IMG/VR virus record: IMGVR_UViG_3300020084_000094
Span: 1-24,967 of that record
Strand: one strand, 5' to 3'
DNA: 24,967 bases
Source: a virus
Shown: positions 1-15,400 of the stretch, piece by piece
Layout: each line of letters opens with the position of its first letter
How positions within the stretch are numbered: the first letter of the stretch is position 1
The notes under the pieces: model-generated
The model's input: only the letters and a program-made list of their open reading frames with translations
The model's database searches: none
Told to the model about the DNA's origin: nothing
Made by a program: the position numbers and the translations under genes

Positions 1-37
1 CGAGGTTTTTGTTGCTTACGTGATGAGGAAATGAGCG

Positions 38-487
38 ATGCCAGGCCCCATACCTAAACCGATGGCGCTGAGAGAGCGGCGCAACAAGGTGGCCACGCGC
101 GCGTCGTTGGCGCCGGAAAGCGAGCCGCGCAAGCGCGCCCCGCGTCTGCCCAAGCGGGAAGGGGACTGGCATCCCATGACGCGCGCCTGGTGGCGCGATG
201 TGTGGCACTCGCCGATGGCCGCGGAGTACATTCGCGCAGACGAGCACGGGCTTTTCCGCCTGGCGGTGCTGGTGGACCAGTTTTGGGCACATCCCACCTC
301 ACAGCTCGCGGCAGAGATTCGCCTTCAGCAGCAGGCGTTCGGCCTGACGCCCATTGACCGACGCCGGCTGGAGTGGAGCATCGAGCAGGCCGAATCCGCA
401 ACGACCAAACGGCAACAACGTAAAGTGCGCCAGGCTCATGCGGGAGAGATTGATCCGCGTGAGGCTCTCAAGGTGAGCGGCGAATGA
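38..487 (+). CDS. terS: Phage terminase small subunit (P27-like), 149 aa
   Basis: Probable DNA-recognition subunit of the packaging motor, which binds viral DNA and delivers it to the large terminase. The protein is small, very basic at the N-terminus (many Arg/Lys in residues 10-45) and helical, with a WW-containing segment (RAWWRDVW, about residues 49-56). That pattern is common in small terminases of actinophage/HK97-type viruses. The ATG at 38 follows a GAGGAA purine stretch at 25-30. The stop overlaps the next start in an ATGA at 484-487, which suggests translational coupling to the large terminase. The family call rests on size, charge and position directly before the large terminase rather than on a catalytic motif, because none is expected. 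The 37 bases upstream are too short to show what precedes it. Confidence 0.75.
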   Translation: MPGPIPKPMALRERRNKVATRASLAPESEPRKRAPRLPKREGDWHPMTRAWWRDVWHSPMAAEYIRADEHGLFRLAVLVDQFWAHPTSQLAAEIRLQQQAFGLTPIDRRRLEWSIEQAESATTKRQQRKVRQAHAGEIDPREALKVSGE

Positions 488-2106
488 CGGTGCTGATGGT
501 GCCCGCTCTCGATAAGATACCCTGGCCCACTCTCGGGCCACAGGTCTGTTCCTTCATCGAATCGTTTCTCACGTTCGGCCCTGGGGACCTGCGCGGCGAG
601 CCTGCTCGCATAGACGCGGAAAAGCGCGCTCTGATCTATCGCGCCTATGAGGTATTTCCGCAGGGGCACGAGCAGGCGGGGCGGCGCCGTTTCCGGCGCG
701 TGGCCATCTCCCTGCGCAAGGGCTCCGCCAAGACCGAACTCCTGGCGTGGATCGCCGCCTGCGAGCTGCATCCTGAGGGGCCAGTACGTTGCGACGGATT
801 CGATACCGATGGCAACCCTGTGGGCGTGGGCGTCACCGATCCCTACATCCCGCTCGTGGCCTACACCGAGGAGCAAAGCGACGAACTGGCCTATGGCGCG
901 CTGCGGGTGATCCTCCAGCACAGCCAACTGGTCAACGACTTTGACATCGGCGTCGAGCGCATCATGCGCGTTACGGGCGATGGCAAGGCCGTCAGTTTGG
1001 CCTCCTCGCCTGACGCGCGGGACGGGGCGCGCACCACGTTCCAGGGCATGGATGAGACGCACCGATGGACGAGCCCGCGGCTGAAGCACGCGCACCGCAC
1101 GATGATGGCCAACCTGCCCAAGCGCTATCTCGCCGATGCATGGAGCCTGGAGATCACCACGGCGCCAGCGCCAGGCGAGAATTCGGTGGCTGAGGACACG
1201 ATGGAGTACGCGCGGCAGGTGGCGGATGGCAAGATCGCCGACACGCGGCTCTTTTTCTTTCACCGCCAGGCGGGGGATGACCACGACTTGGGCAGCCCCG
1301 AGGGCGTGCGCGCGGCTGTCTTGGAGGCCTCCGGCCCCATCGCCGAATGGTCGGACATAGATGGCATTGTCGAGCAATGGCAAGACCCGACCGCCGACCG
1401 CACGTACCTGGAGCGCGTGTGGCTCAACCGTCTCGTCAGGGCCAGCGAGCGCGCCTTTGACGCCGAGCGTTGGCGAGAGCTGGCCGTGGACGTGAGCCCC
1501 GTTGAGGACGGGGACATGATCACGCTCGGGTTTGACGGGGCGCGCTATCACGACGCCACCGCTATCGTGGCCACGCACATTGCCACAGGATACCAGTGGC
1601 TCGTGGGCCTATGGGAGCATCCCTATGGCGTGCAGGACTGGGAAGTGCCTGAACACGAGGTGGATGTGGCCGTAGACGAGGCGTTCACGCGGTGGAACGT
1701 TTGGCGGATGTACTGCGATCCGCCCTATTGGGAGACGCGCGTGGCGGAATGGGCGGGCCAGTACGGCGAAAAGCGGGTGATGAACTGGTACACGAATCGC
1801 ATGAAGCCGATGGCCTATGCCATCCAGGCGTTCAACACCGCGATCCTGGCGGGCGATCTCTCGCATGATGGCTCCCAGGGGCTAACGCGGCACATGGGGA
1901 ACGCCGTGCGGCGCATTCTGAACCTGCGCGACGATCAGGGCAAGCAGATGTGGGTGATCTACAAAGAGCGGCCCGATTCGCCGCACAAAATCGATGCGGC
2001 CATGGCCGCGGTCTTGAGCTGGGAGGCGCGCAACGATGCCCTGGCCTCCGGCGTCATGGCGCAAGGCGAGAGCGTGTACGAGACCCGAGGCATTCTGATA
2101 ATCTGA
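484..2106 (+). CDS. terL: Phage terminase large subunit, 540 aa
   Basis: ATPase/nuclease of the packaging motor that cuts concatemeric DNA and pumps it through the portal. The N-terminal ATPase domain has a divergent Walker A (SLRKGSAKTE, residues 76-85) in place of the classical GxGKT, as in many siphovirus terminases. A Walker B with catalytic Glu follows (FQGMDE, about 186-191), then a coupling-type motif (ITTAPAPGE, about 224-232). The C-terminal RNase H-like nuclease has spaced acidic residues: LGFDGARYHD (Asp351), YCDPPYW (Asp412) and SPHKIDAAMA (Asp504). The length is normal and the reading frame is intact. It starts inside the stop of the small subunit (ATGA). Confidence is high because both enzymatic halves are visible. 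Confidence 0.95.
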   Translation: MTVLMVPALDKIPWPTLGPQVCSFIESFLTFGPGDLRGEPARIDAEKRALIYRAYEVFPQGHEQAGRRRFRRVAISLRKGSAKTELLAWIAACELHPEGPVRCDGFDTDGNPVGVGVTDPYIPLVAYTEEQSDELAYGALRVILQHSQLVNDFDIGVERIMRVTGDGKAVSLASSPDARDGARTTFQGMDETHRWTSPRLKHAHRTMMANLPKRYLADAWSLEITTAPAPGENSVAEDTMEYARQVADGKIADTRLFFFHRQAGDDHDLGSPEGVRAAVLEASGPIAEWSDIDGIVEQWQDPTADRTYLERVWLNRLVRASERAFDAERWRELAVDVSPVEDGDMITLGFDGARYHDATAIVATHIATGYQWLVGLWEHPYGVQDWEVPEHEVDVAVDEAFTRWNVWRMYCDPPYWETRVAEWAGQYGEKRVMNWYTNRMKPMAYAIQAFNTAILAGDLSHDGSQGLTRHMGNAVRRILNLRDDQGKQMWVIYKERPDSPHKIDAAMAAVLSWEARNDALASGVMAQGESVYETRGILII

Positions 2107-2113
2107 GGCGACG

Positions 2114-2287
2114 ATGAACAAAACGCCGGCCTTTGGCCTCCGCGAGATCACGGCCCTGATCGGCCTCGGCTGCCTGGCCGCGGGGTTGGGCCTCCAGAGC
2201 GTGCCCCTGGCGCTCACCGTCGTGGGTGCATTGCTATTCGGGTTGGCGGTCTGGCCGCTGCTCTGGCCGCGAAGGGGTGAGAAATGA
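2114..2287 (+). CDS. Small hydrophobic protein between terminase and portal, 57 aa
   Basis: Short gene filling the gap between terminase and portal. It starts at ATG 2114, seven bases after the terminase stop, and its TGA overlaps the portal ATG in an ATGA at 2284-2287. The product has a short polar N-terminus (MNKTPAFGLRE), then two hydrophobic stretches (about residues 12-28 and 31-51) split by a Gln-Ser turn, and a basic tail (WPRRGEK). This predicts a small membrane protein with two helices in a hairpin. The exact fit between two phage genes with coupled ends supports real translation. The function is unknown. It resembles a holin only in size and topology, and its position in the packaging block does not suggest lysis. 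The start codon has only a weak purine-rich ribosome site (GAGGCGACG). Confidence 0.6.
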   Translation: MNKTPAFGLREITALIGLGCLAAGLGLQSVPLALTVVGALLFGLAVWPLLWPRRGEK

Positions 2288-3831
2288 GCCTGCTGACACA
2301 GTTGCTACAACCCAGCGCGGTGAACCTCGGCGACGAGCGCCTGTGGCGCATAGGCTCTATCGGCTCCACGGCCTATTCCGGCGTGCACGTGAGCCCCGAG
2401 ACGGCGCTGATGTCGTCCGCGGTGTGGGCCTGCACGCGCTTGATCTCCGAGTCCGTGGCCACCATGCCCGCGATCATGTACAGACGCCTTCCCGACGGCG
2501 GGAAAGAGCGCGCGACGAACCACCCGCTGTACACCGTGCTGCACGACGACCCGAACGAGATTCAGACGGCGTTTATCTTCAAAAGGACGATGATGGTGCA
2601 CGCCCTGCTCTACGGGGGCGGCTATGCGCGTATCACGCCGGGGCCGCGCGGCCCGGTGGACAGCCTCCAGCCGATCCACCCGGACAACATCACCACCGAG
2701 GGGCTGCCCGGCGGCGGCATCCGCTACATGGTGCGCGGCGAGGACGGCGTGCGCCGGCCGGTGAACGCCGAGGACGTGTTCCACCTGCCCGGCCTGAGCC
2801 TCAACGGCGTGGACGGGCTCTCCCTGGTGCAGTACGCGCGCGAGTCCATCGGCCTGGCGCTGGCCGCGGAGGGCTATAGCGCCAAGTTCTACTCCCAGAA
2901 CGCACGGCCCTCGGGCATCCTGAAGCACCCGAATAAGCTTTCGCCGGAAGCGGCGCAGCGCGTAAAAGAATCCTGGGAGGCGGCGCACGCCGGATTGCAG
3001 AACGCGCACCGTGTGGCCGTGCTCGAAGAGGGGCTGGAATGGGTGCAGACGGGGATGACGCACGCCGACGCGGAGCTCATCGCCCAGCTTGATTGGAGCG
3101 CGGCGGACATTGCGAGGTTCTTCAATGTTCCGCTCCATATGATCCAGTTGATGACGAAATCCACCTCCTGGGGCTCCGGCATCGAGGAAATGGGCATCGA
3201 GTTCGTGGTGTTCACGTTGCTCCCGTGGGTGAAAAACTGGGAGGAGTTGATCACCAAGAAGTTGATCTTGGCCCCGCAGAGCTACTTTTGCGAGTTCCTG
3301 CTGGACAACATGATGCGCGGCAAGCTCCAGGACAGGTACAACGCCTACGCCACGGCGCGCAACTGGGGCTGGCTGAGCGCCAACGACGTGCGCCGGTTGG
3401 AGAACATGAACCCCATCGAGGGGGGCGATCAGTACCTGCGCCCAATCAATACGATGGACATGGCTCAGCCCGAGCTGCCGCCGATGCAGCGCGCGCCCAC
3501 GGTGACGCCGACCGAAGGCCATTACCATCTCCTGCTCCATGAGGCGGCCTCGCGCGTGGTGCGCAAAGAGATCGCGGCCATGACCAAGGTCGCCAAGCGC
3601 ACGGCGAACAGCCCCGACGCCTGGGCCAGCGAGGTGGCCGAGTTCTACGCGGGCCACGGCGCCTTCGTGGCCGAGACCCTGCGCATCGGGCGCAGTGCGG
3701 CGGACGCTTATGCCGCGGAGCAGCGCTGCGCGCTGCAAGAGCATGGCGCGGGCGTCATGGAGGACTGGGAGACGAGACGGGCGGGGGACTTGATTACCTT
3801 GGTGCTGGAGGCCAACAATGCCGCTACCTGA
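2284..3831 (+). CDS. HK97-family portal protein, 515 aa
   Basis: Forms the dodecameric ring at one capsid vertex through which DNA enters and leaves. Features of the HK97 portal family are visible. There is a helix with the pattern SSAVWACTRLISESVATMP at about residues 44-62, followed by the clip/wing beta elements (MYRRLPDGG). Next come a HPLYTVLHDDPN segment and the central ALLYGGGYARI stretch. A long stem/crown region contains WSAADIARFFNVPLHMI, and the NDVRRLENMNPIEGGD segment is typical of the end of the family core. About 100 residues beyond that core form a helical tail (from about residue 410) that is longer than in compact portals. The start overlaps the preceding small gene (ATGA) and the 3' end overlaps the peptidase gene by 14 bases. 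Confidence 0.93.
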   Translation: MSLLTQLLQPSAVNLGDERLWRIGSIGSTAYSGVHVSPETALMSSAVWACTRLISESVATMPAIMYRRLPDGGKERATNHPLYTVLHDDPNEIQTAFIFKRTMMVHALLYGGGYARITPGPRGPVDSLQPIHPDNITTEGLPGGGIRYMVRGEDGVRRPVNAEDVFHLPGLSLNGVDGLSLVQYARESIGLALAAEGYSAKFYSQNARPSGILKHPNKLSPEAAQRVKESWEAAHAGLQNAHRVAVLEEGLEWVQTGMTHADAELIAQLDWSAADIARFFNVPLHMIQLMTKSTSWGSGIEEMGIEFVVFTLLPWVKNWEELITKKLILAPQSYFCEFLLDNMMRGKLQDRYNAYATARNWGWLSANDVRRLENMNPIEGGDQYLRPINTMDMAQPELPPMQRAPTVTPTEGHYHLLLHEAASRVVRKEIAAMTKVAKRTANSPDAWASEVAEFYAGHGAFVAETLRIGRSAADAYAAEQRCALQEHGAGVMEDWETRRAGDLITLVLEANNAAT

Positions 3832-4957
3832 ACCGCGAGACGGAGAAGCCTACGACGACTTTATCGAGCGCTGCATGGGAGATGAGAACATGAGAGAGTT
3901 CGACGACGCGGCCCAGCGCCGCGCTGTGTGCGAGCGCCAGTGGGATGACGCCCAGGACGACGGGGGTCTGCTGCATCCTCATTGGCAGGGTGTGGGGAAC
4001 CACACGCATTCGTTCAGCGAGCTTACCGATGGGGCGCAGCTAGGACCTATGCTGACACGCTATAGCCATATCGTCAGCTATGTGCTGAACACGCCCTGGG
4101 CCATCACCGCCGACAAACTGGCGCAGATCATGAGCCTGCTGGGCTTCTACGCCGCGGGGAACAAGTTCACTGCCGAGGAGGTGCGCGAGGCCATCGGCAT
4201 GAGCCAGCGGCCCAGCGCCAGGGCCTCCGGCGCGGTGCAGATCATCCCGCTGTACGGCATCATCACCCAGAGGGCGGGGCTGATGACCGAGACCAGCGGG
4301 GGCACCTCCACGGAGGCCTTCAGCCGGCAGTTCCGCGCGGCGTTGAACGACCCGCAGATCGGGGCCATCCTGATAGACGTGGACTCGCCCGGCGGCGCCG
4401 TCACGGGGGTGGACGAGCTCTCCAGCGAGATACACGCCGCGCGCGGCGCCAAGCCTGTGGTGGCCATCGCCAACTCGCTCGCTGCCTCTGCGGCCTACTG
4501 GATCGCCACGGCGGCGGATGAGCTGGTGATGACGCCCACCGCCGAGGTGGGCAGCATCGGCGTCCTGGCGGCGCATGAGGACGACAGCGCGTTCTACGAG
4601 CGCCAGGGGATCAAGACGACCTTGGTCAGCGCGGGCAAGTACAAGACGGAAGCCAACCCCTACGAGCCGCTCAGCGACGAGGCGCGCGCCTACCTCCAAG
4701 AGCGGGTTGATGAATACTACTCGATGTTCATCCAGACGGTGGCGCGCAACCGCGGCGTGTCCGTGAGCGAGGTGCGCGGCGGGTTCGGGGAAGGGCGCGT
4801 GGTGGGGGCCAAGGCGGCCAAGTCCATGGGCATGGTGGATCGCGTGGAGACGATGGACGAGACCATCGCCCGGCTGCAAAAGGGCCGCCGCTCGCGGGCG
4901 CAGTCTCAGGCGGAGCTGGATCGCCGCGCGAGACGGCTGCGGGCGCTGGCCGGATAG
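3818..4957 (+). CDS. S49-family (SppA/phage protein C-like) serine peptidase, likely head maturation protease, 379 aa
   Basis: Probable capsid-maturation protease that removes the scaffolding part of the capsid protein. Residues 137-355 form an S49 domain. They include IDVDSPGGAVTG (186-197), the Ser nucleophile region NSLAASAAYWIA (Ser224), TAEVGSIGVL (241-250), and a Lys general-base region SAGKYKTEANPYEPLS (Lys276), which together give a Ser/Lys dyad. Residues 1-45 form a separate acidic module (MPLPEPRDGE, ERCMGDENM, AVCERQW) with two Cys residues. I recognise it as a motif often seen at the N-terminus of phage head genes. A His-rich linker (HWQGVGNHTHSF, about 55-66) joins the two parts. 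GGAGG at 3807-3811 sets the start. The C-terminus is Arg-rich, consistent with interior binding in the prohead. The position between portal and capsid fits the role. Confidence 0.9.
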   Translation: MPLPEPRDGEAYDDFIERCMGDENMREFDDAAQRRAVCERQWDDAQDDGGLLHPHWQGVGNHTHSFSELTDGAQLGPMLTRYSHIVSYVLNTPWAITADKLAQIMSLLGFYAAGNKFTAEEVREAIGMSQRPSARASGAVQIIPLYGIITQRAGLMTETSGGTSTEAFSRQFRAALNDPQIGAILIDVDSPGGAVTGVDELSSEIHAARGAKPVVAIANSLAASAAYWIATAADELVMTPTAEVGSIGVLAAHEDDSAFYERQGIKTTLVSAGKYKTEANPYEPLSDEARAYLQERVDEYYSMFIQTVARNRGVSVSEVRGGFGEGRVVGAKAAKSMGMVDRVETMDETIARLQKGRRSRAQSQAELDRRARRLRALAG

Positions 4958-4959
4958 TA

Positions 4960-4988
4960 TTGACAACCCGTTCCGGGTATGCTATAAT
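4960..4988 (+). promoter_or_regulatory. Consensus sigma70-type promoter upstream of capsid gene
   Basis: TTGACA at 4960-4965 and TATAAT at 4983-4988 are separated by exactly 17 bases, and TGC immediately before the -10 box makes an extended -10 element. All twelve core positions match the consensus. Transcription should start near 4995, giving a leader of about 160 bases before the capsid ATG at 5155. It lies just past the peptidase stop (4955-4957), in the only sizeable non-coding gap of the window. The sequence match is certain; activity is inferred. Confidence 0.9.
4966..4978. promoter_or_regulatory. Inverted repeat in promoter spacer (candidate operator)
   Basis: ACCCG (4966-4970) and CGGGT (4974-4978) form a perfect inverted repeat around TTC, lying wholly between the -35 and -10 boxes. 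A protein bound here would block RNA polymerase, or a MerR-type activator could remodel the spacer, although 17 bases is already optimal. The arms are only 5 bp, so chance occurrence in GC-rich DNA is possible. Confidence 0.4.
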
Positions 4989-4994
4989 GGTTCG

Positions 4995-5121
4995 TAGATA
5001 GGCCCGCATCCCAGAGGCTCCGTCGAGACCCGAGGGGCGCAGGCAACACGGGAAACGCCTCCGACGAGCGCGCGAACCGTTGCGACACGATGCAAATCGT
5101 GGCGTGCGGACGCGCGTTTTT
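4995..5121 (+). ncRNA. Structured capsid leader RNA / candidate small RNA
   Basis: Predicted transcript from the promoter at 4960-4988. The first half has crossing complementarities. GAGGC (5014-5018) can pair with GCCTC (5057-5061), and CGTCG (5021-5025) with CGACG (5062-5066), which together would make an H-type pseudoknot with directly abutting 3' strands. CCCG (5029-5032) with CGGG (5049-5052) could form a small hairpin in its loop. The second half is a long hairpin ending in a run of five T. The RNA could be a capsid-mRNA leader, an attenuator, or a roughly 125-nt stand-alone RNA. The pairings are read directly from the sequence; the fold and function are inferred. No coding frame with a ribosome site is seen in it. 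Confidence 0.5.
5069..5121 (+). terminator. Long hairpin plus U5, intrinsic-terminator-like, in capsid leader
   Basis: CGCGCG (5069-5074) pairs with CGCGCG (5111-5116), CCG (5077-5079) with CGG (5107-5109), and GCG (5082-5084) with CGT (5103-5105, one G-U pair). CACGAT (5086-5091) pairs with ATCGTG (5096-5101) around a GCAA tetraloop of the GNRA type. Only small mismatches interrupt the stem, and TTTTT (5117-5121) follows directly. This is the shape of an intrinsic terminator, yet it sits between a strong promoter and the capsid ribosome site, so attenuation or an RNA-stability role is likely. Confidence 0.55.
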
Positions 5122-5154
5122 CGTTGCTCCGCCGCCACCCAGCCAAGGAGCAAC

Positions 5155-6471
5155 ATGCCAAAGAGGTATCAAGCGCTACTGCAAGAGCGCGCAGAGCTCG
5201 TGGCCGAGGCCCGGCGGGCCTTTGAGTCCGCCGAGAAGGACGCGCGCGACCTGACCGATGCGGAGCGCACGCGCGATGACGAGATCGCCGCCAGGCTGGA
5301 CGTCATCGCGAGCGAGCTCCAGAGAGAAGAGCGCCGGCGGGAGTGGGAACGCTCCGTTGAGGCCGTCGCCAAGCCGAATGCGGGAACCAGCGTCACCCTC
5401 CCCGGGGAGATCGCCCGCATCCTAGACGCGCAGGATCAGCCGTTCGAGAGCCTCGCCGAGCAGCTCCTGGCCGTGCGCCAGGCCGCGCTCCCTGGGGGCT
5501 ATGTGGATCTGCGCCTGCGCGCGCAGCTCGGGCATAACGTGGGCATTCCCGCTGAGGGCGGCTTCCTGCTGCACCCGCAGTACGCCGCGGGCATCTGGCA
5601 GCGGGTGTACGAGTCCGGCGCGATCATGAACCGCACCTTCAAGATTCCCATCGGGACGGACGCGGACTCGGTGCTCGTGAACGCGCTGGCGGAGAACAGC
5701 CGCGTGACCGGCAACCGCTGGGGCGGCCTGCAAGCCTACTGGGTGCAGGAGGCGGGCAACCCCACGGCCTCGCAAACCCAGTTCCGGCAGATGCGTTTCA
5801 GCCCGCACAAGCTCGCCGTGCTCACCTATGCCACTTCCGAGATGCTACGCAACCCGGCCACGCTGGAGGGCGTGATCAACCAGCTCGTGCCGCAGGAAAT
5901 CGCCTGGCAGACAGAGAACGCTTTCGTCAACGGCATCGGCGGCGGGCAGCCCATCGGGATTCTCCAGAGCGCGGCGCTCATCGCCGTGGCCCCGGAAGCC
6001 CTCCAGGCGGCGGCCACCATCGTTTCCGAAAACATCTCGAACATGTGGGCGCAGATGTGGGCCAAGAGCCGGCCCAACGCGGTCTGGCTCATCAACCAGG
6101 ACTGCGAGCCGCAGCTCGACCAGCTCAGCCTCCAAGTGGGCGTGGGCGGCGTGCCGACCTATATGCCGCCTGGCGGATTGGCCGACGCGCCCTATGGACG
6201 CCTCAAAGGGCGGCCCGTTATCGCTGTGGAATACTGCCCGACGCTGGGCACCCAGGGCGACATCATCCTGGCCGACTGGTCACAGTACGGCATGTCGGAT
6301 CGCGGCTCCATCCGCTCGGAGAGCTCGATCCACGTCCAGTTTCTCACAGATCAGATGGCCTACCGGTTCATCTATGAGGTGGACGGCCAATCCCTTTGGA
6401 ACGCGCCGCTCACCCCGGCGCAGGGCGCGAACCAGCTTTCGCCGTTCGTGACCCTACAGGCCAGGCCATAA
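5155..6471 (+). CDS. HK97-fold major capsid protein, 438 aa
   Basis: Main shell protein. The start is set at ATG 5155, after AAGGAG at 5145-5150. An upstream in-frame TTG at 5080 would put the leader hairpin inside the gene and has no ribosome site. Residues 1-75 are highly charged and predicted coiled coil (Glu/Arg-rich), matching the delta/scaffold domain removed during maturation in HK97-type phages. From about residue 110 the sequence has family features: GGFLLHPQYAAGIWQRVYESGAIMNRT, an E-loop/P-domain region with WVQEAG, and FSPHKLAVLTYATSEML. IGGGQPIGIL follows near the middle, and GRPVIAVEYCPTLGTQGDIILADWSQY toward the end. It probably receives its own transcripts from the upstream promoter. 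The peptidase next door is the likely processing enzyme. Confidence 0.94.
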   Translation: MPKRYQALLQERAELVAEARRAFESAEKDARDLTDAERTRDDEIAARLDVIASELQREERRREWERSVEAVAKPNAGTSVTLPGEIARILDAQDQPFESLAEQLLAVRQAALPGGYVDLRLRAQLGHNVGIPAEGGFLLHPQYAAGIWQRVYESGAIMNRTFKIPIGTDADSVLVNALAENSRVTGNRWGGLQAYWVQEAGNPTASQTQFRQMRFSPHKLAVLTYATSEMLRNPATLEGVINQLVPQEIAWQTENAFVNGIGGGQPIGILQSAALIAVAPEALQAAATIVSENISNMWAQMWAKSRPNAVWLINQDCEPQLDQLSLQVGVGGVPTYMPPGGLADAPYGRLKGRPVIAVEYCPTLGTQGDIILADWSQYGMSDRGSIRSESSIHVQFLTDQMAYRFIYEVDGQSLWNAPLTPAQGANQLSPFVTLQARP

Positions 6472-6483
6472 GGAGTAGTCGAA

Positions 6484-6990
6484 ATGCCACTCGCCTTTTC
6501 ACTCGCTGAAGACCTCAAAGTCGTGGAGGGGCTTGTGCCCCAAATTGGCGGCGCCGCGCCGGTCACATCGGATTATGTGTCCTGCAAGAACCTCCAGAAG
6601 CTTTTCGCGGTGATCCACTACAACCAGGGCGACGCGACGGACGTTACCTGGCGGGTGCTGCGCGACATCAGCGTCGCGGGCGGCGCCTCCGTGGCCATCG
6701 CCAACGTCGTGCCCATCTGGTCCAATCTGAACTGTGCGGCGAGCGATACGCTCGTGCGACGCACCAATGCGGTGAACTATGCCTCGGGCGTGGCTCAGAC
6801 GCACAAGATCATCGTGTTCCAGATCGACCCGGCGGCGCTGGGCCTGACGGCCGGCGGCGTGCCGTATGATTGTATCGCCGTGGGCTCCGTGGGCAATATC
6901 GCGGCCACGAGCACGGTCGAGATCATGTTCTATGGTCTGCCGCGGTATCCCGGTCCCGTAGCGATGCAGCCGTCCATCATCATCGACTGA
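6484..6990 (+). CDS. Putative head decoration-type protein, 168 aa
   Basis: Small beta-rich protein directly behind the capsid gene. Its ribosome site (AAGGAG) overlaps the capsid stop codon, so the two are probably translated in step. There is no signal peptide, membrane segment or enzyme motif. The sequence alternates short hydrophobic strands with Gly/Ala/Asn turns (DVTWRVLRDISVAGGASVAIANVVPIW) and ends in a conserved-looking PRYPGPVAMQPSIIID tail. I recognise this general protein type from uncharacterised proteins that follow HK97-type capsid genes in environmental phages. A decoration or capsid-stabilising role is inferred from position and strand-rich composition. A minor head or fibre-attachment protein is an alternative. 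Confidence 0.5.
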   Translation: MPLAFSLAEDLKVVEGLVPQIGGAAPVTSDYVSCKNLQKLFAVIHYNQGDATDVTWRVLRDISVAGGASVAIANVVPIWSNLNCAASDTLVRRTNAVNYASGVAQTHKIIVFQIDPAALGLTAGGVPYDCIAVGSVGNIAATSTVEIMFYGLPRYPGPVAMQPSIIID

Positions 6991-6996
6991 CCGTAA

Positions 6997-7031
6997 GGGC
7001 GGGGATCAGGGCGGCGCCCTGACCCTCGCCC
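6997..7031 (+). other. Very GC-rich RNA hairpin after decoration gene
   Basis: TCAGGGC (7006-7012) pairs perfectly with GCCCTGA (7016-7022) around GGC. The stem extends outward by GGGCGGGG (6997-7004) against CCC-T-CGCCC (7023-7031) with a single bulge on each side, giving about 15 base pairs. No T run follows, so it is not a standard intrinsic terminator. It could slow 3' decay of the capsid/decoration mRNA or cause partial termination. Confidence 0.55.
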
Positions 7032-7038
7032 CAACAAC

Positions 7039-7053
7039 CCCGGGCAACCCGGG
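7039..7053 (+). other. CCCGGG hairpin next to ribosome site
   Basis: CCCGGG at 7039-7044 and 7048-7053 flank CAA and could form a 6-bp hairpin ending directly at the AAGGGAG ribosome site (7054-7060) of the beta-helix gene. It may affect access to that site. The arms are also self-complementary, so other pairings are possible. Confidence 0.35.
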
Positions 7054-7064
7054 AAGGGAGCAAC

Positions 7065-8417
7065 ATGGCAAAGACCGAACTGTTTGGGCGCTGGCTGCAG
7101 GGCTCCGTGGTCGTGGAGGACCAGGGCAAGAGCACTGGACAGCGCTTTTTCGTGCACGCCACAACGGGCCGCAATGCGGCGGGCTGGGGGCTCAACCCCG
7201 AAGCGCCGTTTGCCTCATTGGCCTACGCGGTGACGCGCTGCACGGCGGGCCGCCACGACATCATCTACCTGATGCCGGGGCATACGGAGACCATCGCCAC
7301 CACCATCACGCCCCTCGCGGGGACGCGGATCGTGGGCCTGGGCACGGGGCAGTTGATGCCGCAACTGACGCCGGCGGCCAACAACCTGGTAGCATTGACC
7401 ATCAGCGCGGCGAACGTGACCGTGGAGAATGTGTACATCAACGCCTCAACAGTTGCAGCGACGGCCACCGTGTTTGGCGTGACCGGACGGCATTTCCACC
7501 TCCGGAACTGCCACATGGATATGGGGGCCAACGACCGGATCGGCATCCGCATCGGCGCGCTGGGCTGTTACGCGGTCATCGAGGACAACGTGGTACAGGT
7601 GACCGCCAACGGACCGGACTCGTGGATCACGTTCGTGCACGCGAACGTGGATATGCCGCTGATCCGTCGCAACCATGTCATCGCGTCTGATACAACCAAC
7701 GAATTCGATGATGAAATCATCGACTTTGGCGGCCTGGCGGTGCGCAACCCGGTCATCGTGGACAACGTGTTCGACGGCGCGGACGTGGCCGTGACGAGCA
7801 TTGATGATGCCGCTGCGGTGGTCGGTGCATGCTTTAGCGCCAACAAATGCGCTGGCGCAGCGGTGAACAACGACATCACCCATGCGGGTTACGCCGATCT
7901 GCTCGACGGCGCGATATCCGCCAACAAGATCGCGGCCAACGCGCTGTCTCGCGCCAAGTTCGCGCTCGGCGCGGGTGAGATCACCGGCGATGGTGTGGTG
8001 GTCACGCGAGCGACGGCGGCCCTGCCGCAAACAGCGGCAGCGGCGCTCTTTACGGTTACAGGTCATTGTCTGCTCAAGCGCCTTGTGGGCGTAGTCACGG
8101 GGCAGGTGGGCGCGGTGGCTAACGCGACCAAATTGCGGATGAACAGCACCGGCGCGGGGGCGACAACGGATCTGTGTGCGACCGTAGAGTTCAACGCGGC
8201 AGCGGTAGACAGCCAGTTCACCATCACCGGGACGTTTGCCAACGCGATGATCAAAACGGTCAACCTGCCCATCGCCACGGCAGTGGACCTCAACGTGATG
8301 TTGGTGCCGGGCACGGTTGACCTCGACTGCGCTGGTTCGGACGGCGGTGATGGGCGCGTGCGCTGGTCCCTGGTCTATCAGCCTCTGGAATCAGGCGCGC
8401 AGATCGTGGCCGCCTAA
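7065..8417 (+). CDS. Parallel beta-helix protein, presumed head-surface protein, 450 aa
   Basis: Residues about 35-270 read as a right-handed parallel beta-helix. An opening GWGLNPEAPFASLAYAV segment is followed by DIIYLMPGHTETI, then repeated short strands with Asn/Gly turns (VTVENVYINAS, FHLRNCHMDMG, AVIEDNVVQVT, LIRRNHVIAS, PVIVDNVFDG). The last 150 residues look like a separate beta-sandwich (from about residue 320). The fold is typical of pectate-lyase-like proteins and tailspikes, but I see no clear catalytic residues, and the position is between capsid and connector genes rather than with the tail. I recognise the opening as a common type in environmental phages. A head fibre or decoration role is inferred; a glycan-binding role is possible. 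The ribosome site is AAGGGAG at 7054-7060. Confidence 0.6.
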   Translation: MAKTELFGRWLQGSVVVEDQGKSTGQRFFVHATTGRNAAGWGLNPEAPFASLAYAVTRCTAGRHDIIYLMPGHTETIATTITPLAGTRIVGLGTGQLMPQLTPAANNLVALTISAANVTVENVYINASTVAATATVFGVTGRHFHLRNCHMDMGANDRIGIRIGALGCYAVIEDNVVQVTANGPDSWITFVHANVDMPLIRRNHVIASDTTNEFDDEIIDFGGLAVRNPVIVDNVFDGADVAVTSIDDAAAVVGACFSANKCAGAAVNNDITHAGYADLLDGAISANKIAANALSRAKFALGAGEITGDGVVVTRATAALPQTAAAALFTVTGHCLLKRLVGVVTGQVGAVANATKLRMNSTGAGATTDLCATVEFNAAAVDSQFTITGTFANAMIKTVNLPIATAVDLNVMLVPGTVDLDCAGSDGGDGRVRWSLVYQPLESGAQIVAA

Positions 8418-8424
8418 CACTGAG

Positions 8425-8443
8425 GGGCCGGGCCATCCGGCCC
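8425..8443 (+). other. Intergenic GC hairpin
   Basis: GGGCCGG (8425-8431) and CCGGCCC (8437-8443) form a perfect 7-bp stem around a 5-base loop, just before the GGAGG ribosome site (8446-8450) of the next gene. Only two T follow, so efficient intrinsic termination is unlikely. It fills most of the 38-base gap. Confidence 0.5.
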
Positions 8444-8455
8444 TTGGAGGTGAAC

Positions 8456-8923
8456 ATGACCGTACTCAGAGGGCCACGCGGCGTCAACCTGATCGCAGGC
8501 GAGACCATCACCCTGGCGGCGCTGGCGGCGCGCACGGTGGTGGCCAACGCCGTGGGGGCCACGGCGAATATCGGGGGCGAGCGCAAGCGCTTTATCGTGG
8601 TGAACCGCATCACGGCCAGCGCGACGGATGCGGGCGATACGCTCGACGTGTACGTGGACTTTTCGCTGGACGGCGCCATCTGGTACAACGCCATCCATTT
8701 CACGCAGAAGGCGGGGAACACGCCGGCGCGCACCGAGTTCGCCGTGCTGGACCCCTCCAACCCGGGCGTAGCGGTGGTTGACGTGACGGCGGACGCCGCC
8801 AGCGGGGCGGTGAGGCCGGCGCTCTTTGGCGTCTACATGCGCGCGCGCTGGACGGTGGTGGAGTTCGCGGGCGCAGGGGCGGCCTCGCACACGTTCAGCG
8901 TGATCGCCTACGCGATCACGTAG
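8456..8923 (+). CDS. Beta-rich head-associated protein of unknown function, 155 aa
   Basis: The start is ATG 8456, five bases after GGAGG (8446-8450); an in-frame TTG at 8444 lies inside the hairpin and is unlikely. The protein is strand-rich throughout, with patterns such as RFIVVNRITASATDAGDTLDVYVDF and GVYMRARWTVVEF. A central LDGAIWYNAIHFTQ stretch suggests a compact beta-sandwich. There is no signal peptide, membrane segment or catalytic motif. It closes the group of three beta-rich genes between capsid and connectors, so a capsid accessory or head-surface role is the best inference. I do not recognise a named family. Confidence 0.5.
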   Translation: MTVLRGPRGVNLIAGETITLAALAARTVVANAVGATANIGGERKRFIVVNRITASATDAGDTLDVYVDFSLDGAIWYNAIHFTQKAGNTPARTEFAVLDPSNPGVAVVDVTADAASGAVRPALFGVYMRARWTVVEFAGAGAASHTFSVIAYAIT

Positions 8924-8931
8924 GGGGCGCT

Positions 8932-9519
8932 ATGGCGACCTACGCCACGATCCTCCACCTCAGGCAGTACCTGACCCAGGTGAAGGCGGGGGCGGAGAAT
9001 GACCTTCTGCTCCAGGCCATCCTGGATCGGGCGCACGCCATCGTGAACGACACGCTCGGGTTCGAGTTCGCGGGCTATGGCGCAACGGCCACGACCCGCG
9101 ACGTGCAGAGCCTGGGCGGATACATCCTCCGCCCGCAAGCCTACGAGGCGGGCACGCTCACGGCCATCGCCAGCGTGTGGGGCCGGGGCACCACGTCCGA
9201 GACGACCGAGACGGTAGAGGACTGGCTCGCTGAGGAGCAGATGCGCCCCTACCAGGTCTATCGGAACGCGGGCTGGGCCTACGGCCGCTGGTATCGGCTC
9301 ACCGCCTGCTGGGGCTATGGCGCCGCGCCGGCCTCGGTGGTGGAGGTGGAGCTCGAGGCGGCGATCAACCTCTGGCGCGGCAGGGACGCCGCGGTGTGGC
9401 AGGCGGAAACGGGCGTGGAGGGCGCCGGGGCCACGCCGTTGAATCGCGCGCTCTCCTGGCCGCAACGCGATGTGCTGAACGCGGTGCGCGCGCAGTACCT
9501 GGGGGTGGTCCATGCCTAG
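8932..9519 (+). CDS. Head-tail connector protein (gp6-like adaptor), 195 aa
   Basis: Likely adaptor ring that binds the portal and starts the neck. The N-terminal half is helical with the usual adaptor pattern: a first helix YATILHLRQYL, then LLLQAILDRAHAIVNDTLGFEF. Next comes a beta insert with Trp/Tyr-rich strands (YRNAGWAYGRWYRLTACWGYG), and a C-terminal helix VVEVELEAAINLWRGRD. That helix-insert-helix order is typical of HK97 gp6/SPP1 gp15 type connectors, which the size also fits. Location right after the head genes and before the gp10-like gene supports this. It begins 9 bases after the previous stop and overlaps the next gene by 8 bases. Confidence 0.7.
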   Translation: MATYATILHLRQYLTQVKAGAENDLLLQAILDRAHAIVNDTLGFEFAGYGATATTRDVQSLGGYILRPQAYEAGTLTAIASVWGRGTTSETTETVEDWLAEEQMRPYQVYRNAGWAYGRWYRLTACWGYGAAPASVVEVELEAAINLWRGRDAAVWQAETGVEGAGATPLNRALSWPQRDVLNAVRAQYLGVVHA

Positions 9520-9979
9520 CCGGTACGGCAAGCACTATGAGCTCACCAAACTGGAGATGCCGGACATCGAAGCGCTCGCGCCCAAGATGCGGCGGAAGTG
9601 CATGTACGAGGCCGTCAAAGTGGTAGCGCTCGTAGCCCGCACCCTCGCGCCGCAGAGTGGGCGCAAGGGCAAAGGGCGGCTGAGCAAGAGCATCTCCTAC
9701 AAGACCTTGGACGCGGGCCTGCGTGGCAGCGTGTACTCCAAAGCCCCGCACGCGCACCTGGTGCACGACGGCACAGCGCCTCACCCAACGTTCTCGCCTG
9801 GCGGCAAAATGTTGCAGTTCAAGGGCAGGTCCGGCGACCTGATCCGGGGCAAGCAGTTCGAGCACCCCGGCGCGCGGGCGCAGCCCTTTTTCACCCAGGC
9901 GCGCGACGACACGAGGGACGAGGTCGAGCAGATCATGAAGCAGACCATGGAAGAGTGCCTGGCTGAGGTGGTGGCCTGA
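9512..9979 (+). CDS. HK97 gp10-like neck / tail-completion protein, 155 aa
   Basis: Probable head-closure or tail-completion component. Recognisable features of the HK97-gp10 family are the helix MYEAVKVVALVARTLAPQSGRKGKGRLSKSI (a helix followed by a basic Gly/Lys loop) and YSKAPHAHLVHDGTAPH, the common YA-xx-VExGT-like region here as LVHDGTAPHPT. ARAQPFFTQARDD near the C-terminus corresponds to the usual RPFLxPA segment. Length is normal. It starts within the end of the connector gene and its stop overlaps the next ATG (TGATG at 9977-9981). Confidence 0.75.
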   Translation: MPSRYGKHYELTKLEMPDIEALAPKMRRKCMYEAVKVVALVARTLAPQSGRKGKGRLSKSISYKTLDAGLRGSVYSKAPHAHLVHDGTAPHPTFSPGGKMLQFKGRSGDLIRGKQFEHPGARAQPFFTQARDDTRDEVEQIMKQTMEECLAEVVA

Positions 9980-10386
9980 TGAGCTACGCCACCGTCCTGG
10001 AGGGCCTGATCGAATGTCTGAAGACTATCCCCGATCTGGTCGGCGTGTACGACTATGCGCCCACGGCTATCCACGACACGCCAATAATCTATACGTTTCT
10101 GGATCGCGCAGAGTACAAAGATGCAGTCCAGATAGAGACGCGCCACTACTTTATCACGATTCGGCTGTTGGTTCGCTGGCAAGACAGCGCGGGCGCGGAG
10201 CTCGAGGCCGCTCCTTTTGTGAACAGCATCCGGACTGCCGTACGGAACGATCCACAGTTCGGCGGGCGGATCACAAGCGGTATGGCACAGGTGCAGGAAT
10301 GCCGTGCAGTTTGGGTTACGGTCGGCGGCGTCGAATATCGCGGGCTGGATTTTACGGTGGATATTTCGGAGAAAGCCCCGTGCTAG
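9979..10386 (+). CDS. Tail terminator-like protein, 135 aa
   Basis: Small alpha/beta protein in the position where long-tailed phages encode the tail terminator (the ring capping the tail tube and joining it to the neck). A first helix (YATVLEGLIECLKTIPDLVGVYDYAP) leads into strands TPIIYTFLDRAEY and RHYFITIRLLVRWQD. A helix AAPFVNSIRTAVRNDPQF follows, with a closing strand AVWVTVGGVEYRGLDFTVDISEKAP. This beta-alpha-beta layout resembles the gpU/DUF3168-like fold. Base use is somewhat more AT-rich than in the flanking genes. No single diagnostic motif is present, so the assignment relies mainly on order and predicted fold. Confidence 0.55.
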   Translation: MSYATVLEGLIECLKTIPDLVGVYDYAPTAIHDTPIIYTFLDRAEYKDAVQIETRHYFITIRLLVRWQDSAGAELEAAPFVNSIRTAVRNDPQFGGRITSGMAQVQECRAVWVTVGGVEYRGLDFTVDISEKAPC

Positions 10387-10414
10387 AACGAGGCAAGACA
10401 ACAAGGAGACTGAA

Positions 10415-11770
10415 ATGAGCGAAATTCCTTTTGAGTACCTGCTGGCTGGCCTGGAAACGCCACGAGGCACGGCCAACGTGAACCCCACCCGGTACCTGAA
10501 CCTGGCGGGGAGCATTGTCCCTCGCGCCGAGCGCTATCGGCCCGAGGAATCCCGCGGCACGCTGGCCGAGTTCTACCGCTCGGTGCACGTGCGCCGCTGG
10601 AGCGAGTTCGAGGCGGAGGGCGGGCTGGACGTGTACACCCTGCCGCTGATCCTGAACACCATAGTGAAGGGCAGCGTGCCCGGCGCTGGCGCGACACAGG
10701 CCGACGTGACCATTGACCCGGCGGGGGCGAACAACTCCATCGACTGGGAGGCCATCGCCCCGGGTACGCAGGGGAACCTGATCTCCATCGAGTACCTGGA
10801 CCCGCTGGCCAACAACCAGCCGCTGGAGCTCGACCTGGTGGGCTATACCATCATCGTGCGTCTGGCGACGGGCGTGGCTGGCGCCATCACCACCATCGCG
10901 GACGACATCACCGCGGCGGTGCTGCTGCACCCGGCCATCTCGCTGCTGGTCACCGCGGTGGACTCGGTGGCCAACGACGGCTCGGGGCTGGTCACGGCCA
11001 TGCCGCAGACGTTTATGACGGGCGGCACCTCCGCCTACGTGGCCACGCCCGGCGGTGGCGCGCTCACCAGGCTGTGGACGTTCGAGCCCACGATGGACGA
11101 CGACGACCTGGAGAGCGCAACACTCTTCTGGGGCGACCCGAACGTGCAGGTGTTCCGCTCCACCTACGGCATGGTGGACGAGCTGACCATCACCGCGGAC
11201 GCCTCGGGGACGGACGGCGCCACGCTGAGCATCAGCGGGCAGGGCCGTTTCCCCACGATGAACGCGCCGGTGGCCGTGCCGGCCATGCTCGCTGGGCCCT
11301 TGTTGATGCCCGCGAACATGCAGCTGTGGATGGACACTGAGGGCGTGAACCCCATCGGCACCACGGCGATCACCGGGCGCGTGCTCTCCGCGGAGGTGAC
11401 CATCCCCTCGGGCATCGCGCGCAAGTGGCACGCCGTGGGGCCCACAGGCACCTTGGACTTTCAGGCCATCGGGCGCGGCAAGAGGCACGCGGAGATGACC
11501 ATCACATTCGAGCTGCCGGACACCGTGCAATACGCCCTGTGGACGGGGCAGAACGACCTGCTCACGCGGCTGCGCATCAACGGGCCGCTGATCGAGGCTG
11601 GTTTCTACCACTATGTCGAGGTGGACATCTACGGGCCGCTCGACTCGCTGGAATGGGGCGAGCACGAGGGGGCGAACCGGACGGTGAGCTTTACCATCCA
11701 GTCCGAGTACAACGAAACGGCGCAGCTCGACTGGGCGGTGAAGGTGCAGTCCGACCGCGATACGCTGTAG
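10415..11770 (+). CDS. Major tail tube protein, 451 aa
   Basis: Likely subunit of the tail tube stacked around the tape measure protein. The start is ATG 10415 behind AAGGAGAC (10403-10410); the frame is open upstream but lacks a better start. The opening EYLLAGLETPRGTANVNPTRYLNL and the later ISGQGRFPTMNAPVAVPAMLAGPLL, followed by strands of the type LSAEVTIPSG and KRHAEMTITFEL, match tail tube proteins of large Gram-positive-type siphoviruses. At 451 residues it is longer than minimal tubes of about 200 residues. A likely inserted beta-domain (about residues 80-215, rich in Ala/Thr/Asp, with DGSGLVTAMPQTFMTGG) may project from the tube surface. It is followed directly by the tail chaperone genes, as expected. 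Confidence 0.75.
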   Translation: MSEIPFEYLLAGLETPRGTANVNPTRYLNLAGSIVPRAERYRPEESRGTLAEFYRSVHVRRWSEFEAEGGLDVYTLPLILNTIVKGSVPGAGATQADVTIDPAGANNSIDWEAIAPGTQGNLISIEYLDPLANNQPLELDLVGYTIIVRLATGVAGAITTIADDITAAVLLHPAISLLVTAVDSVANDGSGLVTAMPQTFMTGGTSAYVATPGGGALTRLWTFEPTMDDDDLESATLFWGDPNVQVFRSTYGMVDELTITADASGTDGATLSISGQGRFPTMNAPVAVPAMLAGPLLMPANMQLWMDTEGVNPIGTTAITGRVLSAEVTIPSGIARKWHAVGPTGTLDFQAIGRGKRHAEMTITFELPDTVQYALWTGQNDLLTRLRINGPLIEAGFYHYVEVDIYGPLDSLEWGEHEGANRTVSFTIQSEYNETAQLDWAVKVQSDRDTL

Positions 11771-11796
11771 CATCGAATCTCTGGAGGGAGAGGATC

Positions 11797-12219
11797 ATGT
11801 CGCGTTTTATCGACGTGCAGTCCAGGGTGCCCGTGGCCCTGGACGGCGATACCGTCTACATCCGCGCAAAGATGGACGTGGCCACCAAGGCTCTTGTCGA
11901 TAACTCCATTGCGCAGTGGGCCATAACGGACAAAGAGAGAGACCCTTCGCTTGCCACTCTGAACATCGGCAGCTATCGGCTGGCATTGCTTATACATAAC
12001 ATTGTGGCGTGGGAAGGCCCCGGCTTTGAGGATGACATCGGCAAGCCAATCCCCTGCACGCGGATCAATATCATGCGCATGGACCCCGATGATCCTTTGC
12101 TGAAGTTGGTGGCCGAGGAGATCGGCAAGCGCAACGCGCCGCCGGAGAGCCCGGACCCAAATGCTCCTACGCCGAGTGGCTCTACCGACGCTGGCTCGGC
12201 GCCTTCCAAGGGACGCTGA
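11797..12219 (+). CDS. Tail assembly chaperone, gpG-like zero-frame product, 140 aa
   Basis: Zero-frame member of a lambda gpG/gpGT-type chaperone pair that solubilises the tape measure protein during tail assembly. The ATG at 11797 follows GGAGGGAGAGG. The first 110 residues are a mixed alpha/beta core (VPVALDGDTVYIRAKMDVATKAL; GSYRLALLIHNIVAWEGPGF), and the tail from about residue 113 is Pro/Ser/Gly-rich (PPESPDPNAPTPSG), like a linker. A slippery heptamer lies near this linker, so a fraction of ribosomes should continue in the -1 frame. Its place between tail tube and tape measure genes is the canonical one. The chaperone call rests on that order and on the frameshift layout more than on sequence recognition. 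Confidence 0.7.
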   Translation: MSRFIDVQSRVPVALDGDTVYIRAKMDVATKALVDNSIAQWAITDKERDPSLATLNIGSYRLALLIHNIVAWEGPGFEDDIGKPIPCTRINIMRMDPDDPLLKLVAEEIGKRNAPPESPDPNAPTPSGSTDAGSAPSKGR

Positions 12220-12455
12220 AAGAGCGCCCGGTTGGGCGCTATGACACCGAGATCGCCCTGGCGGAGCGCTACTATTGGACGCCGGAGCAGATCGCGCGGC
12301 TGGACCCGGACTATCTAACCGAGGTCGTAATGCGCCTCCGCGCAGAGGCGCAGCATGAGGCCAAAGAGCGACGGGAACGCGAACGCAAGAAAGGCAAAGC
12401 GGCCGGCAGCCGTGGCGGAGAGATCGTGGATGTTGACATCTCGGAGATCAGCTGA
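11797..12455 (+). CDS. Tail assembly chaperone gpGT-like -1 frameshift fusion, about 219 aa
   Basis: Translation through CCCAAAT (12156-12162) with a -1 shift joins the first 122 residues of the chaperone to 97 residues in the other frame, ending at TGA 12453-12455, which overlaps the tape measure ATG (TGATG). The extension reads YAEWLYRRWLGAFQGT, then ERYYWTPEQIARLDPDYLTEVVMRLRAEA. A highly charged Arg/Lys/Glu helix and the tail EIVDVDISEIS follow. The WTPEQ plus leucine-rich helix is what tail-chaperone T-domains usually look like. Its only internal ATG (12330) lacks a ribosome site, so independent translation is unlikely. Frame openness and codon quality are seen directly; the frameshift itself is inferred. 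Confidence 0.78.
12156..12201 (+). promoter_or_regulatory. Programmed -1 frameshift signal: CCCAAAT heptamer plus hairpin
   Basis: C CCA AAT (12156-12162) fits the X XXY YYZ rule in the correct phase. Seven bases downstream, CGCCGAG (12170-12176) pairs perfectly with CTCGGCG (12195-12201) around an 18-base loop, at the distance expected for a stimulatory structure. The zero frame stops at 12217-12219; the -1 frame stays open to 12455. Confidence 0.8.
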
Positions 12456-15400
12456 TGGCCAGTAGCGCTGAGCTCGCGCTGATTATGAGCCTCGTGGATG
12501 AGGTGACGAGCACCGCTGAGAAAGTTAAAGGCTCGCTGAAGGACGTTGGCACTGAGGCGCAAGGACTCCAGGGCACATTAAACGGGGCATTCCAGGGACT
12601 CGCCAAAATCGGCGGAACGGCGATCATTGGCGGAGTGGGCGCGGCGGCAGCAGCGGTTACGGGGCTGGGCGCCGCAGCGCTGGCCGCGGGCATGGACTTT
12701 GATGCCGCCTTCGACACGATTGTCCAAAAGACGGGGGCTACCGGCGCAGAGCTGGAGCAGATGAAGGCCGACGCCACGGCGGTGTTCAAATCGCTGCCGG
12801 TGGACATTGGCGCCACGGCGGATGTCATTGCCACGCTGAATCAGCGCCTCGGCGTAACGGGCGAATCGGCGCAGGGTCTCGCTTCGCAGTTGCTCATGCT
12901 CGGCACGGGCGATGCCGTAGCGAGCGCCGAGCTCTATACGCGCGTGATGGGCGACTGGGGCATAGCCACAGAAGACGCCTCAACGACCCTCGATACCCTC
13001 TTTACGGCTTCGCAACTCACCGGCATTGGCGTAGATGATCTCGCGGGCAAGCTCGTCCAATTTGGCGCGCCATTGCGATTGATGGGCTTTGACCTGGAAC
13101 AGTCGGCGGCCCTGTTCGCCAAGTGGGAACAAGAGGGCGTCAACGCCGAGCTGGTGATGGGCTCGCTGCGCATCGCGGCCGGTAACTTTGCCAAGGAAAA
13201 CATTCCGCTCCAAGAAGGTCTCCAGCAGACCATCGCGCAGATTCAGGGGATGGATGACGCCAGCGCCGCGTTGGCGCTGGGCATGGAGGTGTTTGGCGCG
13301 CGCGCGGGGCCTGATATGACCGCCGCTATTCGGGAGGGGCGGTTCAGTATCGAAGAGCTCACCGCGGCAATGCAGGACAGCGAGGGGGCCATCCTGAACA
13401 CCGCCCAGGCGACCATGGACTTTCCCGAAAAGCTCCAAGTGATGAAGAACATGGCGCAGACGGCGCTGGCGCCGATTGGCCTCTCCATCATGGACATCGT
13501 GGGCAAGCTGCTGGAATCCCTGATGCCCGCATTCGAGCGCCTGACGGGCTGGCTGGAGGGGACGCTGGCCCCGGCGGTAGACGCGGCCATGCCGCACATC
13601 GAGACGCTCATCACCGCCTTTGGCGCGCTGCTCAGCGGGGACACAGAGGCCTTCTGGGCGGGGATCACCGAGGGCCTACTGGGCCTCGGCGAGGCGTTCG
13701 GGGTGAGCCGCGAGCAACTCCAGCCGTTTCTGGAGGGGCTACAGTCCACCGCGACGGCCATTGCCACCTTCGTCAGCGAGCATTCGGAAGCGCTCAAGAC
13801 GGCGCTCATCGCCATCGGCGCGGTGTTGGCGGCGGCGGCCATCGCCGGGGCGATAGTGGGTATTGGAGCAGCCATCGCAGCATTGGCGAACCCGGTCACC
13901 GCGATCATCCTGGCGGTGGGCCTACTGGCCACAGCGTGGGCCGAGAACTGGGGCGGCATCCAGGAAAAGACGCAGGCCGTCATTGATTTTATCATGGGCA
14001 TCATCGGTCCGGCGGTGGAGTTCATCCAGGGGCTTTGGGCGGAGCATGGTGAGGCGATCAAGACCACGGCCAGCGGCGCATGGGAGGCGATCAAGACGGG
14101 CTCTAGCGCGGCATGGGAATTCCTGAAGACCAACACCTCCGCGGGTTGGGAGGCGGTCAAGGGGGCCTACGCGACAAGCTCGGAGTTCATCAAAACGCAG
14201 GTCAACACGGCGCTGGAGGCCATCCGCGCATTCTGGGCGGAGCATGGCGAGACGATCAAGGGCATCATCCAGGGGTTCCTGGACGTGATCCGTGGCGTGT
14301 TTGACACGCAACTCAATGCCATCCGCGGCGTGTTCGAGGCATTCAAGCTGCTCCTCCAGGGAGACTGGGAGGGGGCGGGCAAGAAGCTGGTAGAGACGGC
14401 AAGTCAGTTCTTGACAGACATCGCCAATGTGTTCACCACGCTCAAGAGCACGGTGGTCAACGCGGCCAAAGCGATCTTTAGCGATGCGGTAGATGCGGTC
14501 AAAAAAGCCATCACGGACAAGATTGAGGAGATCAAACAGGCGGGCAAGGACCTCATCGCCGGGTTTATCGAGGGCATCAAGAGCGCGCCAGGGGCGATAG
14601 CCGATGCGGCCAAGGGGGCGGCAAGCGGCGCGGTCAACGCGGTGAAGGGCTTCCTGGGCGTGGGCTCGCCTTCCAAGGTGATGATTGATATAGGCAAAGA
14701 CACGATGACTGGCCTGGCCATGGGCATCGATCAAGGACAGGCGAAAGTATTAGAGAAGATCGGCGAGTTCCTGTCAGGTCTCTCCGACATGTTCGGCGTG
14801 CTCACGGGCCAGGATATGGGCGGGCTCGACGCTGGCAGTTTGCGGGCGCGTGTGGACGCGCTAGCTGAGGTCCTGGTCTATGCTATCAAGCGTTTCGCGG
14901 ACATACAGCGGCTCTATGGCTACAAGGAAATCAAAGAGCTGGACAAGACTACCACGCGATTCGGGCGAATGCTGGAGGTCATCGCCAAGGACTTGAGCAA
15001 AATCAAGGGGTTGGAGGACCCCACCGCGATCCCCCGCTTTTTCAACGAACTAGAACAGATGATCCATCACGCGCTGGCCCTGGCGCGGCGCATCGGCGGG
15101 AAATACGGCAAGGATCTGCTGGAGGAGATGGGGAAGATCTCTGAGCTGATCCTGAAGGTATTGAGCCTCACAGGTTTTGACCCCGAAAGCGTCAAAATGG
15201 CTGAGAAGGGCCTGCCCGACCTGGTGAAGTGGGGCGAGCAACTATATGCTATCATCATCAGGGCTACCGAGATTCTGGCCGCTGTACGCAAGGCGGTTTC
15301 GGATAGCCTTCTAGCCGAATACGCGGGCGTCACAGAGAATGTCACCAAGATTCTTTCCCTGACACAGGGAGCCAACATTGAAAACATGCTGGCCATCGCC

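Follow-up and report, generated by a model that had tools for sequence, protein, structure and literature searches.

In RAT antiterminators of the BglG/SacY type, a short hairpin overlaps the 5' arm of a terminator. The RNA targets of ANTAR proteins, including those of NasR, AmiR and EutV, are antitermination leaders with dual hairpins whose hexanucleotide loops begin with A and have G as the fourth base (PMC3369931). The put RNA of phage HK022, a cis-acting element of about 70 nt, consists of two stem-loops and binds directly to the zinc-binding domain of the beta' subunit of RNA polymerase (PMC9378689). The leader RNA described here, located in front of a phage major capsid protein (MCP) gene, has a twin-hairpin design closest to that of the ANTAR-target RNAs, but its loops do not follow their rule.

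The leader was found in IMG/VR virus record IMGVR_UViG_3300020084_000094 (positions 1 to 24,967); this entire stretch of 24,967 nt is referred to as the window. It carries an HK97-type operon in the order small terminase subunit, large terminase, portal, S49 head-maturation protease, MCP and tail genes, and the gap of 197 nt between the protease and MCP genes (4958-5154) contains a promoter. Relatives in Chloroflexota genomes, together with a Thr/Pro-rich linker in the protein encoded at 21756-23504, suggest that the host belongs to the Chloroflexota. Region 18143-21454 encodes a putative tail protein with a Sipho_Gp37-like N-terminus and a long internal duplication, with the motif GVTPSAHDVVGALHTIAAAQYQLVG present twice. 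The features of the gap and its neighbours are as follows.

3818-4957, plus strand: head maturation protease of peptidase family S49, a neighbouring gene given for context.
4960-4988, plus strand: sigma70-type promoter, with the -35 box TTGACA at 4960-4965, an extended TG at 4980-4981 and the -10 box TATAAT at 4983-4988.
4966-4978, no strand assigned: a probably incidental inverted repeat, ACCCG-TTC-CGGGT, within the promoter spacer.
5002-5044, plus strand: domain 1, comprising an outer stem, an internal loop and hairpin HP1; covariation 0.713 versus 0.299 in shuffled sequences (five lineages).
5016-5030, plus strand: HP1, with a bulged A5028 and the loop CGTC at 5021-5024.
5048-5080, plus strand: domain 2, the proposed antiterminator, comprising the outer stem P2, an internal loop and hairpin HP2; P2 shows compensatory variation among lineages.
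5048-5051/5077-5080, plus strand: outer stem P2, part of domain 2.
5056-5072, plus strand: HP2, with the loop CGAC at 5062-5065.
5066-5121, plus strand: intrinsic terminator, with its 5' arm at 5066-5091, 3' arm at 5096-5119 and U-tract at 5117-5121.
5123-5154, plus strand: hairpin GTTGCTCC/GGAGCAAC over the MCP Shine-Dalgarno sequence (AAGGAG, 5145-5150), complementary at 8/8 positions.
5155-6471, plus strand: MCP, HK97-type Phage_capsid, given for context and as the proposed target.

The original prediction described a perfect consensus promoter with TTGACA, 17 bases, TATAAT and an extended TG, and this is exactly what the window contains, the 17-nt spacer being ACCCGTTCCGGGTATGC; transcription is predicted to start near 4995. 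A scan of bases 1-20000 revealed no other 12/12 match, and four sites matching at least 9/12 positions were observed versus 3.3 in shuffles, the remaining three each scoring 9/12. According to a first-order Markov estimate, 0.00033 perfect matches on the plus strand and 0.00023 on the minus strand, or about 0.0005 in all, would be expected by chance in this GC-rich sequence. A search with the protease yielded 47 loci among viral contigs. Protease identity to the window is 73-75% in L006 and L007 and 62% in L011, and the gaps of these three loci share the same parts: a promoter scoring 10-11/12 (11/12 in L006), two CUCCGNNGAG-type hairpins, a GC-rich hairpin with a U-tract, and the MCP ribosome site. 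The boxes are also retained in L086 and other relatives with the same flanking genes, a comparison that the original prediction had itself named, and in most promoter-bearing relatives the distance from the boxes to HP1 is similar (22-36 nt). Matches of at least 10/12 numbered 11 in 41 kb of gap sequence, compared to 32 in the remainder of the 2.0 Mb scanned. The retention of the boxes supports the proposal of a genuine promoter inside the operon, which would be a source of capsid mRNA, of a separate RNA or of both. Since a phage needs hundreds of MCP copies and the consensus is perfect, one could propose an ordinary strong unregulated promoter, with hairpins that are due to chance or to general mRNA structure; this explanation is already disfavoured by the comparison of relatives, and the hairpin enrichment, covariation and loop conservation reported below make it highly improbable.

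The repeat ACCCG-TTC-CGGGT does exist within the spacer, and it had been taken as a sign that such a strong promoter is controlled. The search for further ACCCG-N3-CGGGT copies proposed at that time found only this one in the window (0.02 expected), and a short inverted repeat in a single spacer is weak evidence for control. The spacers of the closest relatives, GAGTCGAACAAATGTGC in L006, TTCTGCCTCAAGCGTGC in L007 and TTTTGCGGAATGTGGGA in L011, do not contain the repeat, and a role as an operator was therefore rejected. The control element appears to be located downstream of the promoter, outside the spacer repeat. Judging from the sequences compared, the leader RNA just downstream, which the original prediction missed, is conserved more widely than the promoter itself: L010 and L076, the MCPs of which are 62-64% identical to that of the window, keep both hairpins and have no promoter. 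We read the promoter as one of several ways of feeding a leader RNA whose conserved core is the twin hairpins. In the promoter-type leaders of the window (4997-5004), L006, L086, L176 and L271, the 5' end also carries a short conserved motif between the predicted start and domain 1; it reads GAATAGG or similar, the window form being GATAGG.

The two domains are similarly built, each hairpin ending in a tetraloop C-R-W-H closed by a C-G pair. The third loop base, which was left out of the selection rule, is either A or T in each of the 91 hairpins, and the bulged base following the third pair of HP1 is retained in most members of the promoter group. Covariation scores were 0.745 versus 0.163 for HP1 (25 sequences), 0.704 versus 0.211 for HP2 (34 sequences) and 0.542 versus 0.158 for the hairpin pair, the pairing counts of the inner stems being biased upward because the hairpins were partly selected for pairing. 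In the outer stem of domain 1, which was not used in selection, 9 of 11 pairs have changed on both sides across five lineages. Likewise, P2 keeps its pairing despite sequence change (ACGG/CCGU, ACAG/CUGU, GCGGUU/AGCCGC, AGCAG/CUGCU, CCACAG/CUGUGG, ACAACC/GGUUGU). Taken as a whole, the window RNA exceeds its shuffles in stability only slightly (z -1.07). The possibility that the hairpins are DNA palindromes serving as protein sites was rejected as unlikely, because the stems change freely in a compensatory manner, yet the loop and the one-sided bulge are kept. A pseudoknot CCCG/CGGG after HP1 was also rejected: it is invariant across four close sequences and absent from L086 and L064, and its CGG bases are better accounted for by the P2 stem.

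The first twin-hairpin pattern matched 34 viral contigs, 12 of which have the hairpins ahead of MCP by open reading frame context; the others are apparent chance matches, mostly within open reading frames. Further loci were collected by protease-alignment searches of bacterial genomes and viral contigs, and twin hairpins were detected in prophages of Anaerolineaceae, Ardenticatenaceae, Limnohabitans, Polynucleobacter, Comamonadaceae and others. Of 159 non-redundant 300-nt segments at the protease stop, 45 contain twin CRWH-type hairpins, where shuffles gave 0.87; in 972 kb of same-strand sequence outside these segments, 67 were counted. With the less strict assignment made for the tree, they precede MCP in 62 of 157 related loci, ranging from Chloroflexota to Betaproteobacteria prophages. 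With promoter and terminator calls that are heuristic, 12 of these have a promoter and a terminator, 33 have hairpins and, usually, a separate terminator, and 17 have hairpins only. These class labels cluster on the protease tree, yet many gains or losses are required.

A covariance model (R1) was built from the short-linker group. It gave one to four matches per bacterial genome that has any, and all matches with checkable sequence and enough flank are located directly before an MCP gene, while no match was found in the three proteobacterial control genomes of Kaistia, Phenylobacterium and Brucella, whose prophage gap does not carry the element. R1, with E-values that are rough, fails to pick up the window at E below 1, and the window's assignment to the family rests on the loop, the twin arrangement, the position and the class-A alignment.

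The element of L136 and L258 stays beside MCP, at a distance of about 1-2 kb from the protease gene; L163 resembles them, but this locus ends before MCP could appear. The DNA inserted between the protease and the twin hairpins in these three loci amounts to about 1-2.8 kb. On the contig of L014, the MCP encoded at L069:2605-3864 matches that of the window at 63% over its first ~70 residues and is unrelated at this level in the shell region; the part that follows the conserved N-terminal domain has apparently been swapped, and the twin hairpins remain. A link of the element to particular MCP or protease C-termini was rejected, since L013, which has no element, carries the same types. The capsid alignment A1, used as a search query, revealed no conserved stretch. 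Three new matches to the pattern GAGACCCG-N-ACACGGGAA (L267-L269) are chance hits in unrelated sequence. The annotated phages BgVeeders33 and ppBdUSDA122-1 have no CRWH twin hairpins. In Burkholderia phage BgVeeders33 (L242), a terminator-like hairpin with a T-tract lies directly before MCP (2600-2660), and terminators ahead of MCP may be more general than the twin-hairpin element.

The terminator of the window, stem plus U-tract, ends 33 nt ahead of the MCP start, as would suit an attenuator. Its 5' arm is formed by the 3' half of domain 2, and the antiterminator and the terminator are therefore mutually exclusive. Thermodynamic folding of the RNA up to, but excluding, the terminator 3' arm showed domain 2 as the alternative hairpin, with 7-17 bases of the terminator arm paired upstream in eight lineages computed in this way (window, L006, L007, L011, L086, L064, L041 and L028). 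Such upstream pairing was read by eye from the folds of L023, L031, L032, L270, L271 and L272, although P2 is not clearly visible in the predicted prefix folds of L031 and L032 and HP2 is short in L271. A pattern of promoter plus HP1 only, in which the overlap was not required, found four new contigs (L270-L273), of which three (L270, L271 and L272) are protease-MCP gaps where the terminator reuses the upstream hairpin region. Altogether, comparison of sequences shows the promoter, the two covarying domains with their conserved loops, the position before MCP and the overlap of domain 2 with the terminator, and promoter, domains and overlap recur with compensatory changes in some fifteen divergent lineages. 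For the full-length RNA of most lineages, folding predicts the terminator as the stable form, so that termination would be the equilibrium default unless a stabilising factor intervenes.

We propose that the promoter starts an MCP leader that acts in cis as a transcription attenuator in the window phage, with a probability of about 0.58. RNA polymerase would make domain 1 and then domain 2 first. If domain 2 holds, the 5' arm of the terminator would be occupied and transcription would read through into MCP; if it opens, the more stable 5066-5121 terminator would form and a short RNA of ~125 nt would be released. The twin loops would be the binding site of a factor that stabilises the antiterminator, by analogy with ANTAR proteins on dual hairpins. 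The transcription start, the switching, the way in which regulation runs and the factor, both its existence and its identity, are what we infer here. Among the proteins of the window that were scanned with Pfam, none was recognisable as an RNA-binding regulator.

The same ~125-nt RNA, compact in structure and bracketed by a promoter and a strong terminator in about a dozen lineages, could instead be the product of a stand-alone small RNA gene that acts in trans as a sponge, antisense RNA or decoy, MCP being a mere neighbour. However, the same-strand position before MCP persists across very diverged phages and survives insertions, and many lineages carry hairpins with no terminator, where they are therefore part of the MCP mRNA; a separate small RNA gene is thus unlikely.

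The terminator of the Betaproteobacteria group is separate and does not overlap HP2, and the third group has hairpins with no terminator at all; attenuation by overlap is therefore not a universal function of the element. Either the recruitment of a protein or an action on RNA polymerase may be the role of the hairpin core, its outputs differing by group. The group with non-overlapping terminators would be accounted for if the stem-loops bind RNA polymerase and make it ignore late-operon terminators with no need for a protein factor, as in HK022 put. Two stem-loops of ~80 nt directly after a promoter and ahead of one or two terminators, in phages whose hosts belong to different phyla, would be consistent with this. 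On the other hand, most promoter-bearing lineages have the antiterminator/terminator overlap, which such a mechanism does not need, and no Rfam family was matched. To our knowledge, a conserved terminal loop is not among the described requirements of put. A put-like action is also rather unlikely. The resemblance to put is one of shape and position: two stem-loops, location in cis directly after a promoter, phage origin and downstream terminators. The element differs in its conserved terminal loops, in the mutually exclusive terminator of one group, and in preceding a late capsid gene, whereas put acts at early promoters.

In the window, the additional stem over the MCP Shine-Dalgarno sequence could provide a second, translational layer of control; a similar stem was seen by eye in L006 and L007, and a shorter one, CUCC/GGAG, in L031 and L032. 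This stem, and the persistence of the hairpins with MCP even where the promoter or terminator is lacking, would fit a protein-binding leader that governs how MCP is translated or how the mRNA is processed and how stable it is, for instance through feedback by a capsid protein, with the terminator-like hairpins only protecting mRNA ends. The systematic overlap of antiterminator and terminator in the promoter group, and the Shine-Dalgarno stem being seen in few lineages beyond the window clade, argue against such a leader, which we consider improbable.

As to known RNA families, Rfam 15 gave no match at the gathering threshold for the window and 20 related loci, and none up to E 10 for 4900-5200, and membership in a known family was rejected on this basis. 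No earlier description of a twin-hairpin capsid leader was found in the open-access literature, and a new family of capsid leader RNA is our best reading of the sequences. Like ANTAR targets, the element has tandem small hairpins with a shared loop consensus, joined by a variable linker in the leader of the gene controlled, the second adjoining or overlapping an intrinsic terminator. Unlike them, it has a C-R-W-H tetraloop closed by C-G and resides in phage structural operons. Read as a hexaloop, it would be C-C-R-W-H-G, with which the class-A loops agree: the C at position 1 follows from the search rule, and position 4, which was not constrained, is always A or T (91 of 91 hairpins). No ANTAR-domain protein was detected with Pfam among the window proteins scanned, which represent a partial phage genome. 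RAT antiterminators of the BglG/SacY type share a short hairpin over the 5' arm of a terminator with the element, which differs in having twin hairpins and other loop and internal-loop sequences; a regulator of this type was not found.

More tentatively, and with the odds against it, one could hypothesise a phage RNA family crossing phylum borders, in which a sensor of capsid assembly, or an RNA acting by itself on RNA polymerase, gates MCP production, with attenuation by overlap as one mode of output among several attached to a common sensing module, as in riboswitches. The silence of capsid genes in a lysogen of a tailed phage, followed by hundreds of copies of the product, is usually credited to one late promoter and antitermination. 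The element offers defined loops and helices for mutation and is carried by prophages of sequenced Limnohabitans and Polynucleobacter strains. If the proposal is true, a conserved RNA gate before MCP in phages of Chloroflexota and Proteobacteria would represent an unrecognised layer of late-gene control.
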